Positions 5,141 through 32,580 of a stretch of 36,077 nucleotides of DNA are shown here, in pieces. Position 1 is the first letter of the stretch. Every line of letters starts with the position of its first letter. The position numbers were made by a program, and so were the translations under genes. The notes below the pieces were generated by a model. That model saw only the letters and a list, made by a program, of their open reading frames with translations. It had not been told where the DNA came from and ran no database searches. This stretch comes from Motiliproteus sp. Its GTDB lineage: Bacteria > Pseudomonadota > Gammaproteobacteria > Pseudomonadales > Balneatricaceae. The DNA lies in assembly GCA_026196225.1 (NCBI GenBank), contig JAPHRD010000121.1:1-36077 (forward strand), read 5' to 3'.

Positions 5141-7039
5141 TTACCGAGCAGTATAAAAATCCAGTTCACGCTGTAAAACTTCGACTCGATTCTCCGCCCG
5201 CTTAAATCCATGCCTTTCTTCTGCAAAGGCGACATACTGCACCTCCAAATCTCGCTCACAGAGCTTGTCATAGAGACCTCGAGTCTGTTCGGCTGGTACC
5301 ACTCTATCCAGTTCGCCCTGAAAAAAAATCACTGGCTTGGCAAAACAGTCAGCTGAAAAGATAGGTGAGCGTTCTCGGTAGCGATCGGCACAGCTATCAG
5401 GATCGCCAATCAGCCAATGCAGATAGTGAGACTCAAATTTGTGGGTCAGCTGATTCAGCCGGTCCAGATCGCTGATGCCATAGTGGCTGGCTCCGGCACA
5501 AAAGCCTTGCTCAAATCCGGGCAGATCGAAACCTGACCGGCACAGAGCCTGCAGAACCGTATAGCCGCCAGCGCTACCGCCACGGATAAAGACTCTTTGA
5601 GGGTCCACCCACCCCTGGGCAATGCAGTAGGCAGCAGCATAGGCGGCGTCCTCGACATCTGTCACACCCCATTGTTCGTGGAGGGCATGGCGGTAATCAC
5701 GACCGTAACCGGTGCTTCCTCGGTAATTGAGATCTAACAGGGCAAAGCCGCGCTGACACCAGTACTGTTTCATCGGGTCATAGCTGGCATTGGCCATCGC
5801 CGTCGGCCCACCATGAAGTTGGATAATCAGCGCCGGTAGCTTCCCCTGTTGGAGATTCTGAGCGGGATAGTAAAATCCATAAGCAGAGCTCTCCCCGGCG
5901 GTTTCAAACTGAATATGATTAGGCAGACTGAAAGCTGCGGAAGACAGCTGGTCGCCATTAAGGTCAGCAAGGACATCGATCTGTGGGGCTTCCAGCAGAT
6001 CACCGCTAATCTTTAGTAACTCAGCACCCTTGTGGGGATACTGGGCGATGGCATAGACCTCCTCCTGGTCCGAAACCACTGATTGCAGTGCAGACCAACG
6101 CTGTGGCAACCGCCGCAAACGTCCATTGCGCAGGTCGATGACCATCAACCCAAAACGTCCCTCTTCGACAAAGCTGCACACCGCCAAGTGATCGCCGATC
6201 AGGGTGTAGCGGCTCAGGCCTAATTGCCACTGCGCAGCCCCTAGCTCTAGCGCCAGCGGTTCTGTAACCGCTTTTAAGTTGCCATCGGTAGAGCAATATA
6301 GATTCCACCAGCCACTACGATCGGAGGTGAAATAGAGGCAACCGTCTTCAGCATATTCCGGTTGGTAGATCGATTCAGATTTGCCGCCAAACCAGCCATC
6401 GGCGAGCTGCTGAATCAGTTGAATATTGCCGCTAGAATCCAGCTGGGCTTCCATCAAACAGGTTGACAGCCAGGGTTGGTCGGGATGATTCCAGCTAAGC
6501 CAGGCCAGCTTGCGACCATCACTGCTAACCCGGGGTGAGGCATAGAAATCAGCCCCCTCTACCAGGACACTGCGTTGACCGTTGTCGGGATCAATAGCGA
6601 CTAGTCGGTTAATCACCTGAGCAGGCAGGTCACCTTCGGGGTGGTATTCCTCCACCGCCAGCAACCGATGATGGCAGTGATCGTAAACCAGATCGCCGTA
6701 GCGATAGCCGGACTGATGGAGCAGGACTTGCAACTCACCCAGGCCATCCTTGCTAACAGGCAAACGGCAAAGAGCCTGATCCTGTTCGCGCACCAACAAC
6801 AATGCATCCCCGGCAACACAGAAGGCGCCACCGCCGTACTCATGCACGCGGCTACGAACGCAAAGATCATCGTCAGTCATCGATTTTGGCAGTCGTTCGC
6901 CGCGCGGGGTAACCACCGATGTGATGGCGCCATTAGGATCGAACTGTAGCCAGTAGACCTGACCGCCAGACACCTGAATCTCCGACCATTCCACTCCCTG
7001 TTGGCAAGCTTCTAGTGCGGAGATTGGCGCTCTATTCAC
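5141..7039 (-). CDS. S9 (prolyl oligopeptidase/acylaminoacyl-peptidase-like) serine peptidase of the PQQ operon
   Basis: 632 residues. An N-terminal beta-propeller-like region (about 1-370) is followed by an alpha/beta-hydrolase domain. The catalytic triad reads as Ser489 (GGSAGGY), Asp578 (GELDRVVP) and His610 (EERHGF); LHGGPTAMANASYDP is the oxyanion-side loop. No signal peptide, so cytoplasmic. The start is GTG, 11 nt after the pqqE stop, so it is co-transcribed. In P. aeruginosa the equivalent place (PA1990, pqqH) also holds an S9 peptidase. A role in releasing or trimming the cross-linked PqqA peptide is inferred from position and family; PqqF/G-type M16 proteases do this in other species. 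Confidence 0.88.
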   Translation of the reverse strand: MNRAPISALEACQQGVEWSEIQVSGGQVYWLQFDPNGAITSVVTPRGERLPKSMTDDDLCVRSRVHEYGGGAFCVAGDALLLVREQDQALCRLPVSKDGLGELQVLLHQSGYRYGDLVYDHCHHRLLAVEEYHPEGDLPAQVINRLVAIDPDNGQRSVLVEGADFYASPRVSSDGRKLAWLSWNHPDQPWLSTCLMEAQLDSSGNIQLIQQLADGWFGGKSESIYQPEYAEDGCLYFTSDRSGWWNLYCSTDGNLKAVTEPLALELGAAQWQLGLSRYTLIGDHLAVCSFVEEGRFGLMVIDLRNGRLRRLPQRWSALQSVVSDQEEVYAIAQYPHKGAELLKISGDLLEAPQIDVLADLNGDQLSSAAFSLPNHIQFETAGESSAYGFYYPAQNLQQGKLPALIIQLHGGPTAMANASYDPMKQYWCQRGFALLDLNYRGSTGYGRDYRHALHEQWGVTDVEDAAYAAAYCIAQGWVDPQRVFIRGGSAGGYTVLQALCRSGFDLPGFEQGFCAGASHYGISDLDRLNQLTHKFESHYLHWLIGDPDSCADRYRERSPIFSADCFAKPVIFFQGELDRVVPAEQTRGLYDKLCERDLEVQYVAFAEERHGFKRAENRVEVLQRELDFYTAR

Positions 7040-7050
7040 AGTCTATTTCT

Positions 7051-8223
7051 CTATCCTTTCCGGGCCAAAGCCTGATCGATATTGCGAGCGTTACGCAGGA
7101 TTAACGGTTGCACGTCATCCTGTGTTTCCGCTTTCAGTCGGGCCTCTTCGATGAGGTGATGGTGAGGAGACTTACTGCACACAGGGTCTGCATTGGCGGC
7201 ATCCCCTGTCATCATAAAGGCCTGGCAACGACAGCCACCAAGATCCTTCTCCTTCTCATCGCAGGAACGACAAGGCTCTTTCATCCAACCGTAACCACGG
7301 AAGTGATTGAAGCCATTGGAGCCATACCAGATCTCCTCCAGAGACATATCACGGACATTGGGGAACTCAATGGGTAACTGACGAGCGCTGTGACAGGGTA
7401 AAGCCATGCCGTCGGGCGTGATAGTCAGAAACATATTACCCCAGCCGTTCATGCAGTCTTTGGGGCGCTCTTCGTAGTAATCCGGCACCACAAAAATCAG
7501 CTTGGGACCGCTGCCATCCAACTCTTCACGATAGCGATTGGTAGTAGCCTCGGCCCGAGCAATCTGCTCACGGCTCGGCAGCAGCTGATCGCGATTGATC
7601 TCTGCCCAACCATAGTACTGAGCGGTAGCCAGCTCGACGTAATCGGCTTCTAATTCGATGGTCAGTTCGATGATCTGGTCGATCTGATCAATATTGTCGC
7701 GATGGATTACGAAGTTAAGCACCATGGGATAACCCTGGGCTTTAACTTCTCGAGCCATCTCCAGCTTCTGCCTGAAGGCCTTGTCGCTGCCCGCCAAGCG
7801 GTTGTTGAGTTCAGCATTGCTGGCCTGAAAACTAACCTGAATATGATCCAGGCCGGCTTTATGGAATACTTCCATGCGCCCAGCATCCAAGCCCATTCCA
7901 GAAGTGATCAGGTTGCTGTAATAGCCCATCTGCCGGGCTTCACGAATCAAGATTTCCAGATCTTTTCGCAACAGCGGCTCACCGCCGGAAAACCCGAGCT
8001 GGGCGGATCCTAGCTGGCGACCTTGAGCAAATACATCGAGCCACTGGTCGGTGGTCAGCTCTTCCCCGCTGTTTTTAAAATCGATGGGATTGGAACAATA
8101 GGAACATTGCAGCGGGCAGCTGTAAGTCAGCTCAGCCAGCAGCCACAGAGGCTGACTGGCACTATTACTACCATGTTCCCGATTCCGGTAATCAGCCTGG
8201 GAATTGGATCCACTGTTGTCCAT
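7051..8223 (-). CDS. pqqE: PqqE, PqqA peptide cyclase (radical SAM/SPASM)
   Basis: 390 residues. PqqE forms the Glu-Tyr carbon-carbon cross-link in PqqA, the first step of PQQ synthesis, with PqqD as chaperone. The radical SAM cluster motif is C36-x3-C40-x2-C43 (CPLQCSYC), followed by [12 protein letters not shown] for SAM binding. The C-terminal SPASM region keeps its cysteines: [31 protein letters not shown] and [10 protein letters not shown]. The start overlaps the 3' end of pqqD by 32 nt, indicating translational coupling. It is a paralogue of the gene at 30068-31228, the two sharing long blocks such as KSPHHH and GDAAN. Confidence 0.96.
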
Positions 8224-8467
8224 GGGCGTCCTCCAGAAAAGCCATCACGTCGGCGTCGATCCCTTCGGCTTCAGGAAATTTCTGCTGCAACTTGGCGATA
8301 ATCGTCGCCACATCGGCTTCGCCATCACACAGCTGCAGTACTTCAGCCGCACTGCCATTGAGCTTAACCATACCTTCAGGATACAGCAAGACATGTGCAT
8401 CTTGAGCCGGTTCCCACTGCAAACGAAAGTGACGATTGATGGCAGGCACACTATCAGCATTGATCAT
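8192..8467 (-). CDS. pqqD: PqqD, PqqA-binding chaperone
   Basis: 91 residues, the usual PqqD length. It binds the PqqA precursor and delivers it to PqqE. Family features are [25 protein letters not shown] and a [12 protein letters not shown] segment typical of the PqqD/RiPP recognition element fold. Its ATG overlaps the pqqC stop (TAATG), and its 3' end overlaps pqqE. The second PqqD in the window (31197-31493) has the same core motif [13 protein letters not shown]. Confidence 0.95.
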
Positions 8468-9270
8468 TATAGGATCCCCTGATGATAGCGCACAGGCTGG
8501 CTCAGCTGATCTTTAACCGTATGGTAAGGCTCACGCCCCAACTCATAGGCCATGGACATGGAATCCAGCATCGACCAGAGGATATCCAGCTTAAACTGGA
8601 GGATGTTCAAGGCGTGCTCCTGCTGTTCGCGGGTGTTGAAATAATCCAAGGTAATCTGCAAGCCGTGTTGCACATCGCGACGGGCTTCGGTGAGGCGATT
8701 GCGGAAATACTGGTAACCCTCAGCTTCGATCCAAGGGTAGTCGGTGGGCCAGGTATCCAGACGCGATTGGTGGATAGTCGGTGCAAACAATTCGGTCAGT
8801 GAAGAGCTGGCTGCTTCCTGCCAGCTAGCACGGCGGGCGAAGTTAACGTAGGCGTCCACGGCAAAACGAACGCCGGGCAGTACGTGCTCCAAAGACAAGA
8901 TCTCCTCACGACTCATGCCGCAAGCTTCTCCCAGGCGCAACCAGGCTTCGATACCACCTTCGGCACCCTCGTAACCGTCGTGATCCAACACCCTCTGGAC
9001 CCAATGACGACGAACATCACGCTCGCGACAGTTAGCCAGAATAGCCGCATCTTTCACCGGAATATTGATTTGGTAGTAGAAACGATTGGCGACCCAACCA
9101 CGGATCTGCTCAGGGGTGCAACGACCCTCGTGCATAGCGACATGGTAGGGGTGGTGAATATGGTAAAGCGCGCCTTTATCACGGAGTTTCTTTTCAAACT
9201 CTTCACGGCTCCAGGCCGATAGTTCCATGGAGGCGACGTTGCTCTCACACTGTGATGGATTAGCGGTCAT
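8467..9270 (-). CDS. pqqC: PqqC, pyrroloquinoline-quinone synthase
   Basis: 267 residues. This cofactor-free oxidase carries out the last ring closure and eight-electron oxidation giving PQQ. Recognised from [38 protein letters not shown] and [26 protein letters not shown], all conserved in the TENA/PqqC family. An internal ATG at 9228 ([12 protein letters not shown]) would give 253 residues, closer to the usual length; neither start has a strong ribosome-binding site. Coupled to pqqD by TAATG. The second pqq-like cluster lacks this gene. Confidence 0.95.
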
Positions 9271-9321
9271 AACTTTTCTCTGCTTATAATCAATTCGTTA
9301 TTGTTATGGGGTTGTTCGTTT

Positions 9322-10251
9322 TTAGAGTTCGATTTCCATACCGTCCCAGGAGACTTCCACGCCCTGGCGAGCCAGTTCCGCTCGTTCCTCGGAGTCTTCA
9401 TTCAGAATCGGATTGGTGTTGTTAATATGGATCAGAATCTTACGGGCCTGCTGAGTGGCTAAAAACTCCAGCATGCCTCCTTCACCACTCTGGGGCAGGT
9501 GCCCCATCTGCAAGCCACGCTGGGTTCCGACCTCTTGCACGATCATCTCGTCGTCACGCCACAGAGTGCCATCCACCAGCAGGCAGTCAGCTTTTTCAGT
9601 CCAAGGCAACAGGTGGGGTTCGATCTCGCCAAGGCCCGGTGCGTAGAATAGTTTGCCGCCAGTCACAGTGTCTTCGACAAACACCCCCATGTTGTCACCC
9701 ACAACCGGGTTATGACGGTGTGGCGAATAAGGAGGCGCCTTGCTGGTCAGCGGAATGGCGGTGATTTTGATGTTCTCGATCTCGGGAATAGTAAAGGGTT
9801 CGGCGCTATCGTAGCTGGCAGACAAAGGCACCGGATGACGCTTAAGACCACCCCCATTCCAGCTCTTCAACATCTCAAAAATAGGGAAACCAACACTGAG
9901 ATCCTCAAACACCGGATCGGCGCAGTAGACATCAATAGGGCAACCTTCGCGCAGCATCAACAGACCGGTGGTATGGTCGATCTGAGCATCCATCAGCATC
10001 ACAGCGCTGATACCAGTATCACGCAGAGCGCGAGCCGGTTGCATTGGATCGAAAGAGGCTAGTTGGGCGCGAATATCGGGGGAAGCATTCATCAGTAACC
10101 AATGCTCGCCATCAGAACTGATAGCGATAGAAGACTGAGTGCGGGCCTTGGCGTTGAGACTACCGTCGCGATAACCCTTACACATGGCACAGTTGCAGTT
10201 CCACTGGGGGAAGCCGCCACCGGCAGCTGAACCTAAAACTCGTATTTGCAT
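9322..10251 (-). CDS. pqqB: PqqB, metallo-beta-lactamase-fold oxygenase of PQQ synthesis
   Basis: 309 residues from the ATG at 10251, chosen because the protein then begins [19 protein letters not shown], the normal PqqB N-terminus; the reading frame stays open upstream to 10299. PqqB is a non-haem iron hydroxylase acting on the cross-linked Glu-Tyr intermediate. The structural zinc cysteines are seen in CNCAMCKG, and metallo-beta-lactamase-like motifs [11 protein letters not shown] and [11 protein letters not shown] are present. It lies between pqqA and pqqC. There is no second copy in the window. Confidence 0.95.
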
Positions 10252-10405
10252 GATTGGACTCGTGGGCAATTGACTGATTAAGCCGTCCTGGAAACCCACT
10301 CACCGGTAAAAGATTGGAAAGCACATTTAAATTGGTGATAAACAGCCCGTCTCTGGGCTTCGGGTCAACTCCACTACATCCGTGAATGGACCAGGACGAC
10401 GTAAA

Positions 10406-10431
10406 GACCGCCTCGCAGAAGCGAGGCAGTC
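10406..10431 (-). promoter_or_regulatory. Hairpin 9 nt after pqqA stop (attenuator or 3'-end stabiliser)
   Basis: On the minus-strand RNA, GACUGCCUCGC pairs with GCGAGGCGGUC through a UUCU loop: 11 bp including one G-U wobble that pairs only in the pqq transcript, not in its complement. There is no clear U-run, so full termination is unlikely. It would make the short pqqA message more abundant than the pqqBCDE part, as is known for other pqq operons. A matching hairpin follows the second pqqA-like gene. Confidence 0.7.
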
Positions 10432-10440
10432 GTAACACAG

Positions 10441-10512
10441 TTAGCGGTTGCTGAAGTACATAGTCACTTCAAAACCAACACGCATATCCGTATAAGCGGG
10501 TTTAGTCCACAT
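10441..10512 (-). CDS. pqqA: PqqA, PQQ precursor peptide
   Basis: A 23-residue peptide starting [19 protein letters not shown] and ending FSNR, almost the Pseudomonas PqqA sequence. Glu15 and Tyr19, the two residues whose carbons become PQQ, are in the EVTMY core. A GGAGG ribosome-binding site lies 8 nt before the ATG. It is the first gene of the pqqABCDE-peptidase operon, with a 189-nt gap to pqqB that contains a strong hairpin. Confidence 0.96.
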
Positions 10513-25114: not shown

Positions 25115-26164
25115 TTATTTTTCAGTGCTGTTGTGAATCAGTGGCAATTTCAACAGAAACTCCGCGCCAACTGCCGGAGAGGGCAAACATTCAAGACTCC
25201 CGCCCAACACCTCACTGCAAAGGTTGTAGGAGATATGGAGGCCAAGACCAGTCCCTCCTTCTCCACGGCGAGTGGTGTAAAAGGGCTCGAAAACATGATC
25301 GATAACATCAGCGCTGATGCCTTTACCCGTATCTCGAAAATAGAGATAGATCTGCTCACCGTCGTGCTCCAACTGTACGGTAATTTTACCGGAGCCACCG
25401 TCGTCAAAGGCATGCTCTAAAGTGTTAATGACCAGGTTGGTGATTACCTGGGCGATCACCCCAGGGTAGCTATCAATCTCCAAGGGGCCCGCACCGGCCA
25501 CTTCAAATTCAACATCACTTTCTTGCAGTCGAGGTTTTAGACTGTCCAATACTTCCCAAAGCAGCTGTGGCAGATCAAACACTCGCTGTTCGTAGGTGGC
25601 CTGATCCACAGCAGCCTGTTTAAATCGCTGAACCAATTCATGAGCACGCTGAAGATTGGTCAAAACCAGTTCTGAGTTTTCTTGAATATCTGTCAGATAA
25701 TCTTCCAGGGTTCCCTTGGTCAGTTGCCCCGCTTTGACCTGAGCAACGATCTGACGGTTATGCTCTCGCAAGTGGGAGACCGCGGTAACCCCCACACCAA
25801 CAGGCGTATTGATTTCATGGGCAACACCGGCCACTAAATGACCTAGAGCTGCCATCTTTTCAGATTCAATCAATTGTTGCTGTGTCTGATGCAAGGTCTG
25901 CAGCGATTGTTCCAATGCAGCGTTAGAATCGTCCAATTGCTGCATCGCCGATTCCAATTCTTCGGTACGACGGCGGATTTTATCTTCTAAGGTAATGGTG
26001 GTTTGGAACAGGGAAAAATCCGTCGCTTCGGAGTTAACGCCCTGCTCAGCCCGATCCATCAATACATAGATGATCTTCTGTAGCCGATCGATTTCAGTCA
26101 GCAATTCCGATTTACTGGCGCCGCCACCGATAGGTGAAAAACTGTCAGTCACTTGGGTATCCAA
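25115..26164 (-). CDS. Sensor histidine kinase partner of a FIST/NosP-like protein
   Basis: 349 residues, soluble. A coiled-coil region (about 55-105) leads to the H-box MAALGHLVAGVAHEINTP with His116. The ATPase domain has the N-box (NLVINTLEHAF), G1 (DTGKGIS) and G2 (GGTGLGLHIS). There is no PAS, membrane or receiver domain, so input must come from a partner. It overlaps the FIST gene by 20 nt. In P. aeruginosa the FIST protein NosP is co-cistronic with the kinase NahK, and NosP controls its autophosphorylation in response to NO; the same logic is inferred here. No response regulator gene adjoins. Confidence 0.9.
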   Translation of the reverse strand: MDTQVTDSFSPIGGGASKSELLTEIDRLQKIIYVLMDRAEQGVNSEATDFSLFQTTITLEDKIRRRTEELESAMQQLDDSNAALEQSLQTLHQTQQQLIESEKMAALGHLVAGVAHEINTPVGVGVTAVSHLREHNRQIVAQVKAGQLTKGTLEDYLTDIQENSELVLTNLQRAHELVQRFKQAAVDQATYEQRVFDLPQLLWEVLDSLKPRLQESDVEFEVAGAGPLEIDSYPGVIAQVITNLVINTLEHAFDDGGSGKITVQLEHDGEQIYLYFRDTGKGISADVIDHVFEPFYTTRRGEGGTGLGLHISYNLCSEVLGGSLECLPSPAVGAEFLLKLPLIHNSTEK

Positions 26165-27305
26165 TGGCCACTCCGGTACAAGTCTGGTTCACATGCACGC
26201 CGTTGAACTGTTCCCCATAGGTGCTGAAGCCAATGCAACGATGTTCAGCCAATATCTCAGAGACAGGATCCATCAGGGACTCCTGCTGCAGCTCCAAACG
26301 ACGCAGAATGCAGTCGCAGGTGATAACCGCCTGAGGTTGACCCAACTGCTCCCGCACTCGCTGCATGGATTGATCAAGGTCGCTGACCATATCGACACCA
26401 CAAGCGATACGCAATACGATGCCAACATCGATAGCACAGAAAAAGGTCAGGCTTCCGTCGTCATTCACCTTCTGGATCGAGCGTACAAACTCTGCATCCC
26501 CCATGCGCACCACCACCGGATGAGCGGCAAAGACCAGTGGTGATAGCTGCTCACTGCTGATGCCCAGCAATCGAGCGTATTCCAATGCAGCGGGATGGCC
26601 GTTGATCTCGGTAACTTTTCTTTTCTCCGGAACCGCTTCGGTGACCACCATACGCTGTTCCGTGGCCTGAAAATGCTGAGTCTTGAAGACTTTAAACGGG
26701 AGCTGGGTAGTAATCATCAATAGCAGGGCGGCATCTTCCAACAGCTCACCTTGATGAAACAGATAGGTGGCTTTAAAAGCCAGATCATCGCCGGCAGAAC
26801 CACCGATCAACGGCACCTTGGGCATGGCGCTGGCGATCATTCTCACCAAAGGCTCCTCTCGCACAGACATCCCATCAACTAACAGCAGCGCAAAGGTGTT
26901 GCTGTCATCATGCAGTTGATAACGGGTATTATGAACACTGTGGCCTTTAGCAGCGGTTTTACGCCAGTGATTCAAGGACAGTCCCTGAAGATCATCGAAC
27001 TGCTGCAGAGAGACGGAGAACTCGCTGGCGGAGAAAGAGATAGCGGTGATACTTTCACTACTATAACCCTTGGGTCCAATCTCTCCGGCGGTGCTGCAAC
27101 CCACCACCAAAGTATCTGGAAACGCCCTTTGTAATGCCTGCGCCAGGGCATGAATATCATAGTGAAGCGAACAGAACACCAGAATCAGCGATATCTCAGG
27201 TTGCGCTATCTGCGTTTTTAGATCGATCACCGCCGATTCTGCATCGCCACTTTTTGAATACCCCTGTCGGGTACCGAGAACTTGTTTGGTCATGAACTTT
27301 ACCAC
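26145..27305 (-). CDS. nosP: FIST-domain protein, NosP-like haem/NO sensor
   Basis: 386 residues (GTG start, overlapping the upstream stop as TAGTG; an ATG at 27293 is an alternative). FIST_N covers about 30-220 (VVGCSTAGEIG, PLIGGSAGDDL) and FIST_C about 225-375 (CDCILRRLELQ, GFSTYGEQFNGVHVNQT, TGVAIGYP). No signal peptide. Length, architecture and the adjacent kinase match NosP, the cytosolic NO-binding haemoprotein of P. aeruginosa (PA1975), itself located next to the exa/pqq region. The haem ligand histidine cannot be named from one sequence. FIST proteins can also sense other small molecules, so the NO role is inferred. Confidence 0.85.
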   Translation of the reverse strand: MVKFMTKQVLGTRQGYSKSGDAESAVIDLKTQIAQPEISLILVFCSLHYDIHALAQALQRAFPDTLVVGCSTAGEIGPKGYSSESITAISFSASEFSVSLQQFDDLQGLSLNHWRKTAAKGHSVHNTRYQLHDDSNTFALLLVDGMSVREEPLVRMIASAMPKVPLIGGSAGDDLAFKATYLFHQGELLEDAALLLMITTQLPFKVFKTQHFQATEQRMVVTEAVPEKRKVTEINGHPAALEYARLLGISSEQLSPLVFAAHPVVVRMGDAEFVRSIQKVNDDGSLTFFCAIDVGIVLRIACGVDMVSDLDQSMQRVREQLGQPQAVITCDCILRRLELQQESLMDPVSEILAEHRCIGFSTYGEQFNGVHVNQTCTGVAIGYPSD

Positions 27306-28294
27306 TAATGAACTGGCATACAGTGCGCCGATATTTCCCGCAGCAGGATAGGTCCCCGATAAACCAGCGCGTTATGCATCTGGACCAAAGATGCTCCGGC
27401 AAGCATGCGCTGCTCAGCGTCTGCCAGCGTTGCCATACCACCCACCGAAATCAGCGCAACATCCTCTCCAAGATACTGTTTTAGTGTAGTCAGTCGGGCA
27501 CCAACCTGCTGCTGAAAACACTGATCTAGCTCAGGCAGCGTGCCGCCTTTGCCAACATCTTCAGCAGCCATCACCCCGTCAAACCCAAGCTTTAAGATCA
27601 AATCTAGCACCGGTCGTAGAGGCACCAGGCCCACTCGGGTGTTGAGTTTGACCACTAGCGGACAGAATCGCAGTGTTTGCTCAGCCAAGCGCACTTGGCG
27701 CTGCTTAAGACTATTGAGCAGAAATTCCAATACCTGAAAGTTTTCAGACTGTAGATAAGAACGGGAGGTACCGCCACTGAGATTGATAACAATATAGTCA
27801 GCAAACGGCCAAGCCCATTGCAAGCCCTGAAGGTAATCGTCGACGCCATCGGCCAGACTACTGTCTAGCTGTTTGCCAATATTCGCACCCAGACGAAAAG
27901 AACCATTCTCTCTCGGTGACGGCAGCATAACCCGATCCATATCGGCGGGAGTCACAGTGCCTATTTCCAGATGACCAAAACCCAGTTTCCCCATGCCATC
28001 GCCAATTTGACCAAAACGGTCAAAACCGGCAGCCACGCCGAGAGCATTATCGAAATGAATACCCATGACCGATTTAGAACGTGCTATTTCAGATACCCCC
28101 CCCTTCGCTGAAGACAGCCCTTCATGGGAGAAATCATTGGGGCAGCTTATCTGAAGACGCCAACCGGCAAATACCAGTTTACGGGTCAGGCTGGGCGAAC
28201 AACGCATCATCGCACTCACCAATCGAGGGTAAAACCGAGAGTAGAATCGACTGTATGTTGATCCTGTATTTTCAGGTAGGTTCACAACTGCCAT
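27305..28294 (-). CDS. Dihydroorotate dehydrogenase-like flavoprotein with altered active site
   Basis: 329 residues from the ATG at 28294 (AAGG about 10 nt upstream; a TTG at 28303 is in frame). Class 2 DHOD fold segments are clear: GVAAGFDRFGQIGDG, GFGHLEIGTVTP, LISVGGMATLADAEQRMLAGASLVQ. But the catalytic motif, NISSPNT in E. coli PyrD, reads NLSGGTS (about 171-177), losing the catalytic Ser and an orotate-binding Asn, and the later Asn of the TNTT motif is replaced (GVMAAEDVGK). FMN binding seems kept, so a different substrate is likely. It is 9 nt from the SerC-like gene and overlaps the FIST gene, so it is in the operon. Confidence 0.8.
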   Translation of the reverse strand: MAVVNLPENTGSTYSRFYSRFYPRLVSAMMRCSPSLTRKLVFAGWRLQISCPNDFSHEGLSSAKGGVSEIARSKSVMGIHFDNALGVAAGFDRFGQIGDGMGKLGFGHLEIGTVTPADMDRVMLPSPRENGSFRLGANIGKQLDSSLADGVDDYLQGLQWAWPFADYIVINLSGGTSRSYLQSENFQVLEFLLNSLKQRQVRLAEQTLRFCPLVVKLNTRVGLVPLRPVLDLILKLGFDGVMAAEDVGKGGTLPELDQCFQQQVGARLTTLKQYLGEDVALISVGGMATLADAEQRMLAGASLVQMHNALVYRGPILLREISAHCMPVH

Positions 28295-28303
28295 GGACGA
28301 CAA

Positions 28304-29443
28304 CTACCTTAGTTTAGCGCCTGAGTTTAGCGCCTGCCGACAGGCACTCGATCCGGCCTGCACTGCAAAGCGATCCATAAACTCGATCAAGGCTTCAACA
28401 CCCTGTAGCGGCATTGCGTTATACACACTGGCGCGCACCCCACCCGCCGCCGGATGGCCGGTTAAATAGAGCAGCCCTTCCGCTTCCGCCTGTTGTAAGA
28501 AGACAGACGTCAACGACGAATCCACAACACCGAAGCAGTGATTCATGGTGGAACGAAAACCCTCTTCCACTCCACAGTGGTAGAAATCACTATGATCAAT
28601 TGCCCGATACAACAGACCGCTTTTGTTTTGGTTAAGACGCGCCATCGCTGCAACCCCACCCTCTGCCAACAACCATTTGAAAACCAATCCCGCCAGGTAG
28701 ACACCATAGGTGAGTGGGGTATTGAAACGGCCATTGCAGCTATCAATCACCTGATAGCTGAAGGCGCTGGGAGTTGTGGCCATCGGCTCCCGGATCAAAT
28801 CTTCCCGGATAATCACGATGGTCAATCCAGCCGGTCCAATATTTTTCTGGGCACCGGCGTAAACCAAACCGAAACGATTGAAATCAATTGGCCGGGATAG
28901 AAAATCAGAGGTCATATCGGCAACCAGCGGAACCGTCCCTGTATCAGGAAAATCCGGGTACTGAACCCCGTTTACCGTCTCATTGCTGGTGATATGACAA
29001 TAGCCTGCATCCGGGCTTAACTGCCAACGATCAAAATCGGGAATAGACCGATACCCCTCCTCCTGGGAAGAGGCAGCCACGCCCACCGAACAGTAGCGGC
29101 GGGCTTCGTTGATCGCTTTGGCGGACCAGTGACCAGTATCCACATAGTCAGCGCGGCCTCGCTGCTTTAGCAGATTCATCGGAATCAGGGAGAACTGTGC
29201 CGAGGCCCCGCCCTGCATAAACAGGATACGGAAATGGTCGGGAACCTGAAGCAGCTGGCGCAGATCCTCTCGTGCCTGGTCGGCAATCGCTTGAAATTGA
29301 CTGCCGGTGAAGGGCATTTCCCACACCGAATGGCCGCTGTTTGTCCAGTTAAGCATCTCCCGCTGAGCTTGTTGCAATACCTGCGACGGCATCATTCCCG
29401 GACCGGAACCGAAGTTGTAAACAGCAGAAGTGGATACAGCCAT
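28304..29443 (-). CDS. serC: SerC-like phosphoserine aminotransferase, divergent
   Basis: 379 residues from the ATG at 29443 (AGGG ribosome-binding site); the frame upstream overlaps another gene and is not used. Class V aminotransferase with PLP lysine in GAQKNIGPAG, and SerC motifs YNFGSGPGMMP, FMQGGASAQFSLIPMNLL, DMTSDFLSRPID, HPAAGGVRASVYNAMPL. The enzyme normally makes O-phosphoserine from 3-phosphohydroxypyruvate. The start motif (FNFSAGPAMLP in typical SerC) is changed, and it is not beside pheA/aroA but inside the pqq-like operon, so a special substrate is possible. A 12-bp tandem repeat in its last codons extends the C-terminus. Confidence 0.85.
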   Translation of the reverse strand: MAVSTSAVYNFGSGPGMMPSQVLQQAQREMLNWTNSGHSVWEMPFTGSQFQAIADQAREDLRQLLQVPDHFRILFMQGGASAQFSLIPMNLLKQRGRADYVDTGHWSAKAINEARRYCSVGVAASSQEEGYRSIPDFDRWQLSPDAGYCHITSNETVNGVQYPDFPDTGTVPLVADMTSDFLSRPIDFNRFGLVYAGAQKNIGPAGLTIVIIREDLIREPMATTPSAFSYQVIDSCNGRFNTPLTYGVYLAGLVFKWLLAEGGVAAMARLNQNKSGLLYRAIDHSDFYHCGVEEGFRSTMNHCFGVVDSSLTSVFLQQAEAEGLLYLTGHPAAGGVRASVYNAMPLQGVEALIEFMDRFAVQAGSSACRQALNSGAKLR

Positions 29444-29453
29444 TGGATTAACC

Positions 29454-29960
29454 CTAGTGGAACAGATGCAATCCATGGCTGCCAGCAGCCATAAAGAACA
29501 ACAACGGAATAGATAAAATAGTATTGGTACGGGACGCCAGGAAGGTGATTCTCGAGCAACGCACCCGCTCCTCCACAGGCGCTTCAACAAAACCCAGCAC
29601 CTTTTTCTGATGAGGCCACATAATAAACCACAGATTCAGCATCATCAGGGTACCGATCCAGGCACCGACACCAATCACTGCTAACGGACCATTTAGGGTC
29701 AGCGCATCCAGCAGCCAGCCTCGATACCAGAGCATCCCCATCCCCGTGCACCAAACGACGATGGAAGCGTACCTGAAGGTGCCATGCTCACGGGTCATCC
29801 GCTGCTTCAGATCGGCGGTGCGAGCATCTTCGCTGGTCTCGGCATTAAAAGGGCGAAAGCCTGGATGTTGGATAAAGCTGGCATAGTTGTGTCCGATCCA
29901 CACCAACGCAAAACCCAGGTGCAGCCAGCGCAACAGAAGATCTACGATCGGCAACTCCAT
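29454..29960 (-). CDS. Four-helix membrane protein, PuuD-like (urate hydroxylase membrane domain family)
   Basis: 168 residues with four hydrophobic spans (about 8-25, 62-80, 90-112, 145-162). The first, LLRWLHLGFALVWIGHNYASFIQ, matches the RWLH...WIG start of the PuuD (DUF989) membrane domain, which in full-length proteins is fused to a cytochrome c. The cytochrome part is absent here. Histidines in helices 1 and near 58 and 117 could bind haem, but this is not shown. GGGAG lies 6 nt before the ATG. It sits 15 nt after the small peptide gene and 10 nt before the SerC-like gene. Confidence 0.8.
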   Translation of the reverse strand: MELPIVDLLLRWLHLGFALVWIGHNYASFIQHPGFRPFNAETSEDARTADLKQRMTREHGTFRYASIVVWCTGMGMLWYRGWLLDALTLNGPLAVIGVGAWIGTLMMLNLWFIMWPHQKKVLGFVEAPVEERVRCSRITFLASRTNTILSIPLLFFMAAGSHGLHLFH

Positions 29961-29975
29961 AAGTGACTCCCGGTC

Positions 29976-30071
29976 TTAAGCCAAGAACGCGCGAAGCAGC
30001 AACACCAACAGCAGGGTCAAAGCGACCCCCGCCGTCAGGCTACCGGCCATGGTTTCATGGGGTAGTCTCAT
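29976..30071 (-). CDS. 31-residue single-span membrane peptide
   Basis: The ATG overlaps the stop of the second pqqE as ATGA, indicating translational coupling, and the ORF ends 15 nt before the next gene, filling the space exactly. The peptide begins MRLPHETMAGSLTAG and continues with an unbroken hydrophobic run (VALTLLLVLLLRAFLA), so it should be a bitopic membrane peptide. No homologue recognised. Position and coupling favour a real gene; shortness limits certainty. It could be a subunit of the adjacent four-helix protein. Confidence 0.6.
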   Translation of the reverse strand: MRLPHETMAGSLTAGVALTLLLVLLLRAFLA

Positions 30072-31228
30072 GCCTCGACCTCAGTTTTCAACTCCACCGC
30101 AACCGCACCGGCTTCCCGTACGATCAGACGCTGGTTAATCTCCAGCTCCCGCGCCATCTCAGCGCCACTGATAGCCTCTTGAATCACGTGGTGATGGGGC
30201 GATTTACTACAAGCTGGATCGGTATTGGCAGCATCGCCGGTTAGCGCCAGCGCCTGACATCGGCAACCACCGAAATCCTTCTCCCGTTCATCACAGCTAC
30301 AGCAGGGCTCTTTCATCCACTTGTCGCCGCGGTATTTCATAAAGGTCTCGGACTGTTCCCACAACCATTTCAAGCTATGGTCTTTCACCGTGGGGAAGGT
30401 CAGATCTTTTAGAGTGCGTGCCTGCGAACAGGGAAGTGCCGAACCATCAGGCGCGATGGTCAGGTGAATCGATCCCCAACCATTCATGCAGGCTTTGGGT
30501 CGACCGTCGTAGTAATCGGGAATAACGAAAAAGATCGTCATCTTATCGCCGATACGCTCGCGGAATTTATTAACTTCCCGCTCTGCCCACTCCAATTCGG
30601 CGCGGGTCGGCAACAGCTGATCACGATTAACCAGCGCCCAGTTGTAATACTGAACGTTGGCCAGTTCCATATATTCCACCTCCAGCTCTTCAGCCAGTAG
30701 CAGAATATCGGGGATCTGCGGCAGGTTCTGACGGGTTACCGGAACATTGAGCACCATGGGGAATCCCAGGGCTTTAATTTCTTTGGCGATCGACAACTTG
30801 CGCTGATAGCTTTCAACGCCAGCCATCTGATTGGCCACCTGCTCATCGCAGGATTGGAAACCCAACTGGATATGTTTCAGCCCCAGCTCTTTCAGCCGCT
30901 GCAGGCGCTCGACGGTCAGCCCCACTCCTGAAGTGATCAGATTGGTGTAAAAACCCAGGTCGTCGGCATAACCGATCAGTTCTTCCAGATCTTTGCGCAG
31001 GGTTGGCTCACCGCCGGTAAATCCGATCTGCATCGCCCCCATTTCACGGGCTTCACGGATCACCTTCTTCCACTGCTCGGTAGTCAGTTCACCCTCACGG
31101 TAGCTGTCATAATCCAGTGGATTACTGCAAAACACGCATTTGAGGGGGCATTGGTAGGTTAGCTCCAGGGATACCCAAATGGGTTTCCCGTCGCCATCAA
31201 TTCTTAGCTCTGATCCAGCCTTTGTCAT
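30068..31228 (-). CDS. pqqE: PqqE paralogue (radical SAM/SPASM peptide cyclase)
   Basis: 386 residues from the ATG at 31228 (MTKAGSELRIDGDG), inside the end of the second pqqD; an in-frame ATG at 31264 is an alternative. Radical SAM motif CPLKCVFC and FTGGEPTLRKDL are intact. The SPASM cysteines all remain: [41 protein letters not shown], so full activity on a PqqA-type peptide is expected. It shares large blocks with the first PqqE (for example NRDQLLP, IPDYY, GDAAN). It follows its own PqqD and PqqA-like genes and is coupled to a membrane peptide downstream. The substrate is probably the peptide encoded at 31616-31690. Confidence 0.92.
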   Translation of the reverse strand: MTKAGSELRIDGDGKPIWVSLELTYQCPLKCVFCSNPLDYDSYREGELTTEQWKKVIREAREMGAMQIGFTGGEPTLRKDLEELIGYADDLGFYTNLITSGVGLTVERLQRLKELGLKHIQLGFQSCDEQVANQMAGVESYQRKLSIAKEIKALGFPMVLNVPVTRQNLPQIPDILLLAEELEVEYMELANVQYYNWALVNRDQLLPTRAELEWAEREVNKFRERIGDKMTIFFVIPDYYDGRPKACMNGWGSIHLTIAPDGSALPCSQARTLKDLTFPTVKDHSLKWLWEQSETFMKYRGDKWMKEPCCSCDEREKDFGGCRCQALALTGDAANTDPACSKSPHHHVIQEAISGAEMARELEINQRLIVREAGAVAVELKTEVEA

Positions 31229-31493
31229 GGGAGGCCTCCAGGAACTTAACAACACTTTGGGCAATCACTTCCGGATCGGTCTGATCAAACTCGTTGGCGA
31301 TTTCGGTAATAAACTGGTCGACGGTTAACTCACCATCACAGTGTTTAAGGATGGTGGCAGCAGTTTGGTTAAGCTTCACCACTCCTTCGGGATAGAGCAG
31401 TACGTGGGATTCCTGGGACTCTTCCCAGCGGAACAGAAACAGCGGATTGATTTCGTACCGATCCTGCATCTGCACCTGATGTTGAGTACTCAT
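31197..31493 (-). CDS. pqqD: PqqD paralogue
   Basis: 98 residues. The core [17 protein letters not shown] and HCDGELTVDQFITEIA segments match PqqD; the N-terminus DRYEINPLFLFRWEESQ also fits. It overlaps the start of the second pqqE, as in cluster 1. Its role should be to bind the second PqqA-like peptide and present it to that PqqE. Its start is 122 nt from the pqqA-like gene, with a hairpin between. Confidence 0.93.
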   Translation of the reverse strand: MSTQHQVQMQDRYEINPLFLFRWEESQESHVLLYPEGVVKLNQTAATILKHCDGELTVDQFITEIANEFDQTDPEVIAQSVVKFLEASHDKGWIRAKN

Positions 31494-31581
31494 CTGCGAT
31501 ACTCCTAGTTAGCAACATCCGATGTCTTCGTTATTTCTTGTAGTTATGGCTGGCTCTGTAGGCCTGATTAGCGCGCTCGGG

Positions 31582-31605
31582 ACGGGATTGGGTGACCAAT
31601 CCCGT
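31582..31605 (-). promoter_or_regulatory. Hairpin 10 nt after the second pqqA-like gene
   Basis: ACGGGATTGG pairs perfectly with CCAATCCCGT over a 4-nt loop (10 bp). No T-run follows on the minus strand. Its position and size copy the hairpin after pqqA in cluster 1 (10406-10431), though the sequences differ, suggesting a shared control of precursor-to-enzyme ratio. Confidence 0.7.
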
Positions 31606-31615
31606 TGCTCCCAGA

Positions 31616-31690
31616 TCAACGTACGTAAACGTACGCAGTCACTTCGAAGCCGAGACGCAAATCGCAAAACGCGGGGTCAGTCCACTGCAT
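31616..31690 (-). CDS. pqqA: Second PqqA-like precursor peptide
   Basis: 24-residue peptide MQWTDPAFCDLRLGFEVTAY followed by VYVR. It aligns with the window's PqqA (W-T-x-P-A-x-x-D-x-R-x-G-F-E-V-T-x-Y) and keeps Glu16 and Tyr20 at the spacing cross-linked by PqqE. Differences are Cys9, Ala19 for Met, and the tail VYVR for FSNR. AGGGAGGA lies 6 nt before the ATG, an unusually strong site. It is followed by a hairpin and then pqqD and pqqE paralogues. Too short for most gene finders. The alternative, a decaying pqqA duplicate, is unlikely given the intact core and ribosome-binding site. Confidence 0.9.
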   Translation of the reverse strand: MQWTDPAFCDLRLGFEVTAYVYVR

Positions 31691-31883
31691 GGGAAAATCC
31701 TCCCTAAAAATGTGAAATTTAAAATACCTCGTGATGCTTTTCGTAACCTGCAAACAATGTTTGTGGCTACATAATCCATGCTAGTCCTGGGGCATTTAGG
31801 GCCATAGAACACCTTCGCACTAAAAAACTGGGTCGAAAGTATTAGCATGGTGAGATAAGTCATTTTTCCTGCACGATAACGTA

Positions 31884-31938: not shown

Positions 31939-32580
31939 TTATTTAGCGGCAGAGTTGCTCACCGCATCGATGCTGCCTACCCCAGAAGTGGCGTTCTGAG
32001 ATTGAGCATTGTTCTGAGCATTAACCACGTTACCCATCTGCATAGCAGACTGAGAGCCACCAATATGGCTACCGTACATGTTGCCCTTGCTCTGCGAACC
32101 AAAGCCAGAAGTGTAGCTAGGAGACAGGAAGTTATGACCCTTACGCTTGGAAACTGAAGTCTCCTTCACCAGTGACCCCACAGAAGTACCACCCTGAGTC
32201 TGATTCATCGAGTGACCGCTAGCACCACCGACGTTTGCAGCATTCTGGCCAACATTGGAACCGTAAGCACGGAACTGGTTCAGAGACTGGTTTGCCTTGA
32301 TGTTATCGATCTTGTAGTCCAGACCGTAGTTCAGACGGTAGTCACGGTTTATCTCGGTGCTACGGCTGCGGTCAATATCGTAGTTAAGACGGGTATCGGC
32401 CTTAAACTTCTGACTGCGATCAATAGAAACATCAGTGGTTCGATCAGTGTTAAAGCTATTGGTGTAATCGATCTTGTTAATCCCGTAGTAGTAACCTCCA
32501 GGGCCGGCCTGAGCCACACCAGCGGTCAGAGCAATAGCAGTTACAGCAGTAGCCAAAGTCATTTTAGAAAAAGTTTTCAT
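31939..32580 (-). CDS. Repetitive secreted protein of unknown function
   Basis: 213 residues with a signal peptide (cleavage after AQA at about 26). Residues 40-95 contain loose repeats built on Asp-Arg/Asn-Tyr: NTDRTTDVSIDRSQKF, RLNYDIDRSRSTEI, RDYRLNYGLDYKID. The rest is rich in Gly, Ser, Asn and Gln (NAQNNAQSQNATSG) with no cysteine. This is like an extracellular or outer-membrane-associated structural protein, but no family is recognised. AGAGGA precedes the start. Followed by a strong terminator. Confidence 0.78.
   Translation of the reverse strand: MKTFSKMTLATAVTAIALTAGVAQAGPGGYYYGINKIDYTNSFNTDRTTDVSIDRSQKFKADTRLNYDIDRSRSTEINRDYRLNYGLDYKIDNIKANQSLNQFRAYGSNVGQNAANVGGASGHSMNQTQGGTSVGSLVKETSVSKRKGHNFLSPSYTSGFGSQSKGNMYGSHIGGSQSAMQMGNVVNAQNNAQSQNATSGVGSIDAVSNSAAK

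Follow-up and report, generated by a model that had tools for sequence, protein, structure and literature searches.

A conserved seven-gene unit built around a second PqqA and PqqE type in Motiliproteus and related loci, a candidate alternative pathway to pyrroloquinoline quinone

Clusters of the type pqqADE-puuD-serC-pyrD were described in denitrifying bacteria by Li et al. in 2025 (PMC12423496, section 2.9), with Hyphomicrobium, Halomonas, Stutzerimonas, Methylophaga and Azoarcus as hosts and Hden_0548-0553 as the cluster of Hyphomicrobium denitrificans. Li et al. found it 'tempting to speculate' about oxygen-independent synthesis of pyrroloquinoline quinone (PQQ), reported lowered transcripts in regulator mutants, and named organisms with the canonical genes only and no anaerobic PQQ; a test of the product does not appear in that section. 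Such a pathway bears on a problem raised in part of a 2024 study of nitrous oxide-respiring methanotrophs, namely that strict anoxia restricts PQQ-dependent methanol dehydrogenases because PQQ synthesis requires oxygen (PMC11102522). Incomplete extra pqq operons are also mentioned in a review of the ped cluster (PMC12997753). Here we analysed a stretch of 36,077 nucleotides (nt; hereafter the window) from the 3.96-Mb genome of a Motiliproteus sp. (contig JAPHRD010000121.1), which contains both a canonical pqq operon and a second, pqqA2-led operon of this kind. The initial annotation of the window had taken the gene set to be unfamiliar; the cluster is already in print, with a guess at oxygen-independent PQQ, and the window is a new member. 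Titles and abstract openings revealed no further publication that deals with these genes as a set, with most subscription journals and preprints outside that coverage. Our additions to the printed account are the PqqE2 clade, the substrate-site changes, the membrane peptide, the FNR/DNR-type boxes, the association with NirS-family genes and the arrangement in Motiliproteus MSK22-1.

The conserved part of the operon is a unit of seven genes: pqqA2, pqqD2, pqqE2, a gene for a small membrane peptide, and genes for PuuD-like, SerC-like and dihydroorotate dehydrogenase (DHODH)-like, hereafter DHOD-like, proteins (Table 1). Based on this gene content and the evidence below, we lean, with modest confidence, towards reading the operon as an alternative route to PQQ that serves under denitrifying conditions, with little or no oxygen. 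We scanned contigs from one genome per species with the PuuD-like protein and obtained 36 further named loci, or 37 with the window; loci chosen in this way show the company kept by the PuuD-like protein, not that PqqE2 never stands alone. In each of the 37 loci, pqqE2 was followed by the genes for the PuuD-, SerC- and DHOD-like proteins in identical order. A separate pqqD2 stood ahead of pqqE2 in 36 of them; in the other (L025) the D2 and E2 calls were fused, and this locus was excluded from the PqqD2 and PqqE2 conservation counts. Downstream of pqqE2 and ahead of the PuuD-like gene, a pattern search recovered the small membrane peptide in 34 of 37 loci and inspection by eye recovered it in two more, with a TTG ahead of the motif in most loci; neither approach found it in L048. 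The gammaproteobacterial hosts were Motiliproteus, Halomonas/Billgrantia, Pseudomonas/Stutzerimonas, Denitrificimonas and Marinobacter.

Searching 72,556 plasmid records with the PuuD-like protein returned two, both alphaproteobacterial and both with pqqA, pqqD and pqqE and the genes for PuuD-, SerC- and DHOD-like proteins, in the order seen at the other loci: one from Methylovirgula sp. HY1 (L062) and one from Acidibrevibacterium fodinaquatile (L063). The small peptide was present on the Acidibrevibacterium plasmid and none was visible on that of Methylovirgula. The Acidibrevibacterium plasmid, of 45.8 kb, is typed as mobilizable (MOBQ), which suggests that the unit has spread by plasmid transfer. 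On the Methylovirgula plasmid, the unit adjoins a gene for a Crp/Fnr regulator and has in its vicinity CbpA/CbpB, a further peptide pair modified by a radical SAM enzyme (L062 6980-9829).

PqqE2 and PqqA2 are types of their own. In a PqqE tree of 28 rows (13 PqqE2, of which 11 were from the 37 gammaproteobacterial loci and two were alphaproteobacterial, and 15 PqqE1; midpoint-rooted for drawing only), PqqE2 formed one side of a 100/99 branch, with its gamma- and alphaproteobacterial members together and apart from PqqE1. We therefore rejected a recent duplication of the canonical operon, an outcome that the initial annotation had named as counting against a new pathway. Scores with a PqqE2 profile were bimodal across 198 Pseudomonadaceae genomes, 20 of which reached at least 730 bits, with all other matches listed at or below 513.2. 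A strict scan of the phylum (E 1e-158), which may miss distant PqqE2, found the PqqE of the unit in 2 of 398 genomes, one being the window's own. A third match of that scan (G632, 528.9 bits) was rejected, as its pqq operon is canonical and the SerC nearby is an ordinary one.

We detected PqqA2 in 36 of the 37 loci (none was found in L022), and its last 15 residues, DLRLGFEVTAYVYVR, were invariant in those 36. The C-terminus, AYVYVR, carries a second tyrosine in all 36 and on both plasmids; the canonical PqqA copies listed for those loci end EVTMYFANR. This invariant C-terminus favours a reading in which the operon makes a different compound, either a PQQ relative or a modified Glu-Tyr product, with the aminotransferase removing or moving an amino group and the flavoprotein setting the oxidation state of the ring. 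The same reading is favoured by the aminotransferase, for which we know of no counterpart in the canonical PQQ pathway, and by the canonical equipment that most cluster genomes keep: at least two PqqE proteins in 35 of 37 and PqqC in 36 of 37. By contrast, the E-x3-Y motif of PqqA2 is unchanged, 18 representative loci (of the 37) showed no new client enzyme conserved next to the unit, and in Motiliproteus MSK22-1 the type 2 proteins are the only PqqA and PqqE found, in one gene run with pqqB and pqqC. Overall, we consider a different compound unlikely. The specific version, a PQQ-like redox cofactor other than PQQ made from the second-tyrosine precursor by an aminotransferase derived from SerC and a flavoprotein derived from DHODH acting on a cross-linked peptide of the canonical kind, seems to us unlikely as well.

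The MSK22-1 genome (G057) bears on whether the product is PQQ. Our searches found a single PqqA (E 0.001) and a single PqqE (E 1e-80) there, both of type 2. The DHOD-like gene is followed by pqqB, pqqC, pqqD and a peptidase gene, and a gene for a PQQ dehydrogenase lies about 1.8 kb upstream of pqqA2. PqqA2 and PqqE2 thus very probably feed PQQ synthesis in MSK22-1, which was the only clean single-PqqE case among the 37 cluster genomes. Halomonas heilongjiangensis (G058) was rejected as a second one: it has one PqqE together with three PqqA and two PqqC, and its single PqqE looks like an assembly gap because both canonical loci end at contig ends. In the 18 representative loci, the commonest outside neighbours of the unit were aldehyde dehydrogenase (12 loci), canonical pqqB (10) and canonical pqqC (10), and the group that includes the MSK22-1 PQQ dehydrogenase stood beside the unit in six.

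The MSK22-1 run also suits a narrower reading, in which PqqA2, PqqD2 and PqqE2 would only add precursor flux by supplying cross-linked peptide at low oxygen, PqqB and PqqC would finish the synthesis, and the remaining genes would serve as helpers or in salvage. The near-universal retention of PqqC fits as well. Precursor flux leaves unexplained, however, why PqqE2 has kept, in every one of the 37 loci, neighbouring genes for a membrane protein, an aminotransferase and a flavoprotein with altered substrate sites, and why most related loci have a promoter box of anaerobic type; we regard it as quite unlikely.

That promoter box is one of three observations, with the NirS association and the MSK22-1 arrangement, that favour PQQ made under denitrifying conditions. 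FNR/ANR/DNR-type boxes follow the palindromic consensus TTGAY-N4-RTCAA. We compared 38 promoter rows (36 gammaproteobacterial loci and the two plasmids), many from close relatives and with 34 distinct slots. A box of at least 8/10 lay 166-186 nt before pqqA2 in 34 of 38 loci, with 2.3% expected per locus from Markov shuffles, and one of at least 9/10 in 18 of 38, with 0.2% expected each, in a 21-position slot defined with the box positions already known. Perfect copies of the strict form TTGAT-N4-ATCAA occurred in 11 of 38 loci, namely nine under the name Pseudomonas together with Marinobacter (at -217) and Acidibrevibacterium (at -108). Under stricter scoring over 300 nt, boxes of at least 8/10 occurred in 17 of 38 loci and in 95 of 760 stretches drawn at random from these loci, and 10/10 boxes in 11 of 38 and 8 of 760, where the random stretches may contain the box itself. 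No box above 7/10 was found within 300 nt of eight canonical pqqA genes identified with a narrower pqqA pattern, and the best box of 18 canonical pqqA genes under the stricter scoring was 7/10. The window's own box is a candidate because its position is common to the stronger boxes of related loci. A scan for promoters and terminators gave fewer sites than in shuffled sequence, and no riboswitch matched Rfam at the gathering score in the window, L016 (MSK22-1), L017, L037 or L048. A cyclic di-GMP riboswitch is tabulated ahead of a pqqA gene of Methylophaga nitratireducenticrescens in part of another study (PMC12530212).

The second observation is the company of NirS-family genes. We scored NirS-family proteins as Cytochrom_D1 matches, at E 1e-90 in Pseudomonadaceae and E 1e-30 in cluster genomes; the Cytochrom_D1 family also includes NirS relatives such as NirN and NirF. 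Of the 198 Pseudomonadaceae genomes searched, 152 had PqqE at E 1e-90. NirS-family proteins were present in all 20 PqqE2-bearing genomes and in 26 of the 132 other pqqE-bearing ones (Fisher p 1e-12, taking genomes as independent). Within the genus of Stutzerimonas stutzeri V81 (g36), they were present in 17 of 17 genomes with PqqE2 and 8 of 12 without (p 0.02). Thirty of the 37 cluster genomes had NirS-family proteins, and the other seven all had NarG. A NarG search that covered 11 cluster genomes, without controls, found it in 10. The window genome itself has two Cytochrom_D1 matches on one contig.

The SerC-like and DHOD-like proteins have departed from their families at residues of the usual substrate sites, and the PuuD-like protein matches its family only in part. 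Urate hydroxylase PuuD has a full membrane domain and a cytochrome c domain. The match of the PuuD-like protein was limited to positions 166-238 of the 295-position Urate_ox_N profile, and no cytochrome c domain was among its Pfam matches. H14, H24, H59, H117 and H162 were invariant in 37 loci, and the protein is probably heme-bearing. Its structural model was helical (predicted local distance difference test score, pLDDT, 84.3) and had no match among solved structures at E 0.001 or below, the best being E 0.44.

The SerC-like protein retained the pyridoxal phosphate (PLP) lysine K198 in all 37 copies, together with W102, H328 and R335 (Escherichia coli numbering). In a comparison with three ordinary SerC proteins, S40, H41 and R42 were replaced by P, F and T or G, and R329 was lost, in 13 of 13 copies. 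In ordinary SerC, H41 and R42 are residues for the substrate phosphate; H41 was F in 37 of 37 cluster copies, and R42 was T in 35 and G in two. The S. stutzeri V81 copy fell under the TIGR01364 cut-off at 404.4, and this strain has both an ordinary SerC and the cluster protein.

The DHOD-like protein likewise kept the flavin mononucleotide (FMN) lysine K217 in all 37 copies, along with the FMN-site residues, and N111, N177 and N246, the dihydroorotate residues of PyrD, were absent in 10 of 10 copies compared. Across the 37 copies, asparagine occupied the N177 position once and the N246 position never, whereas these residues are retained by ordinary PyrD in the window genome, in MSK22-1 and in S. 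stutzeri V81. The window protein was under the cut-off of every listed NCBIfam DHODH model (for example, TIGR01036, 141.8 against 200), and its model (pLDDT 84.9) matched the E. coli class-2 DHODH structure 1f76 best, at E 4e-20.

For the alternative PQQ pathway, these features suggest the following scheme. PqqD2 would present PqqA2 to PqqE2, which, judging by its family and the retained E-x3-Y motif, would make the carbon-carbon cross-link between Glu and Tyr; a cellular protease would then free the cross-linked pair. The later oxidations, driven by oxygen in the canonical pathway, would be carried out by the operon's own set: the PuuD-like membrane protein with the small peptide, the SerC-derived PLP aminotransferase and the class-2 DHODH-derived FMN protein. 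The quinone pool would take up the electrons, with nitrogen oxides in place of oxygen as the final acceptors. We infer heme and FMN binding, every reaction, the order of steps and the product of the operon, and the aminotransferase step is the least clear.

Several points weigh against this pathway. All but one of the 37 cluster genomes retain PqqC, and the exception without a PqqC match (G071, E 1e-10) is a fragmented metagenome-assembled genome; there is therefore no case of the unit sufficing alone. The initial annotation had raised the prospect of the unit where pqqB and pqqC are missing, and no clean case emerged for pqqC, with pqqB not searched genome-wide. Because pqqB and pqqC directly follow the unit in MSK22-1, it may do no more there than feed them. 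The unit is patchy within its genus: the DHOD-like protein (E 1e-20) was present in two of six same-genus genomes, counting the window's own, and a search of 57 genomes yielded no more than two additional ones with true orthologues (about 40% identity). The window's box, at 7/10, is by itself at chance level, and the slot for the related boxes was chosen with their positions in view. The NirS counts treat genomes as independent except in the within-genus test, and NarG had no match in the window genome. The window SerC-like copy passes the TIGR01364 cut-off. It may also serve serine synthesis, as may that of MSK22-1, because neither genome has another TIGR01364-type SerC (E 1e-40); serine in these two genomes may come through the cluster protein or through an unrelated enzyme. 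The DHOD-like protein is fast evolving: other copies are 27-38% identical to that of the window, the substrate loop lacks conservation, a serine stands at the S175 position in 6 of 37 copies, and the N-terminal extension is missing from both alphaproteobacterial ones.

In the window, the operon comprises nine minus-strand open reading frames at 31690-25115 (Table 1), separated in gene order by 122, -32, -4, 15, 10, 9, 11 and -20 nt. The coordinates and family matches confirm the nine genes and gaps first annotated. They also bear out the statement that the operon holds neither pqqB nor pqqC, both missing from the nine frames, and that a full pqq operon, pqqA-B-C-D-E with a prolyl-oligopeptidase gene at about 5141-10512, lies some 15 kb away. 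The 31-aa peptide had no family match in profile searches of the window's reading frames. Just upstream of pqqA2, 31939-32580 encodes a 213-aa Asn/Gln/Ser-rich protein with a signal-like start and no Pfam match, and a Cytochrome P460 family protein is encoded at 1058-1618.

Table 1. Coordinates of the pqqA2-led operon and its candidate promoter box in the window (aa, amino acids; SAM, S-adenosylmethionine)
Feature	Position	Strand	Remarks
Weak candidate FNR/ANR/DNR-type box	31850..31863	-	ATGACTTATCTCAC; 7/10; -173 from pqqA2
pqqA2, 24-aa precursor	31616..31690	-	E-x3-Y motif retained (EVTAY), C-terminus AYVYVR; PF08042 41.8 bits, cut-off 21.1
pqqD2, peptide chaperone	31197..31493	-	TIGR03859 80.6, cut-off 46
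pqqE2, radical SAM/SPASM peptide cyclase	30068..31228	-	Separate clade; TIGR02109 500.3, cut-off 381.35
31-aa peptide, one membrane-like stretch	29976..30071	-	Relatives start KLPHDS-like
PuuD-like (Urate_ox_N) membrane protein, 168 aa	29454..29960	-	Urate_ox_N 45.4, cut-off 26.9
SerC-like PLP aminotransferase	28304..29443	-	TIGR01364 457.4, cut-off 443.6
DHOD-like flavoprotein, class-2 fold	27305..28294	-	DHO_dh PF01180 80.7, cut-off 27
nosP, FIST-domain nitric-oxide sensor	26145..27293	-	Local addition; NF041558 474.1, cut-off 450
Histidine kinase (HisKA/HATPase)	25115..26164	-	Local addition; Pfam matches

The last two genes are local additions. NosP passes the cut-off of its family model and is predicted to bind heme and nitric oxide; the kinase had neither a PAS nor a receiver domain among its Pfam matches. 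The tight packing, with nosP starting 11 nt past the DHOD-like gene and overlapping the kinase gene by 20 nt, would suit one dedicated system in which nitric oxide controls the biosynthetic genes. We consider such a system very improbable: nosP adjoined the unit in the window only among the 18 representative loci, nosP-like genes in L019 and L037 stood 5-7 kb off, and the part of the ped-cluster review concerned places the Pseudomonas nosP-nahK pair beside the ped/exa alcohol cluster (PMC12997753). The conserved unit first proposed thus stands for seven genes in fixed order in 37 loci and not for nosP and the kinase. Likewise, its reading as a pathway holds in that the unit is real and PqqE2 distinct, and fails in that the set was already published and the sensor and kinase are not core.

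If the alternative PQQ pathway is correct, it would explain how denitrifiers run PQQ alcohol dehydrogenases without oxygen, and cofactor chemistry would gain three repurposed enzymes.

Compared with the known systems, the operon shares a PqqA with E-x3-Y, PqqD and PqqE with canonical pqqABCDE(F/G); unlike the canonical operon, it lacks pqqB and pqqC, has PqqA2 and PqqE2 of separate types, and carries the additional membrane protein, aminotransferase and flavoprotein. The PuuD-like protein resembles urate hydroxylase PuuD in a significant partial profile match, but it is only 168 aa long and has neither the full domain nor a cytochrome c match. The SerC-like protein has the family and K198, W102, H328 and R335 in common with phosphoserine aminotransferase SerC, whereas S40, H41, R42 and R329 are changed. 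The DHOD-like protein of the window is like class-2 PyrD in fold, FMN-site residues and N-terminal helices, whereas the dihydroorotate asparagines are missing and an ordinary PyrD is encoded elsewhere in the genome. Section 2.9 of Li et al. (PMC12423496) makes no mention of the small membrane peptide, the FNR-type box or the changed substrate sites. Relative to the clusters described there, the MSK22-1 unit is joined to pqqBCD, with a second pqqA or pqqE not found, and the window unit has the same adjacent genes on one strand, together with a separate canonical pqq operon and denitrification genes, and adds nosP and the kinase.

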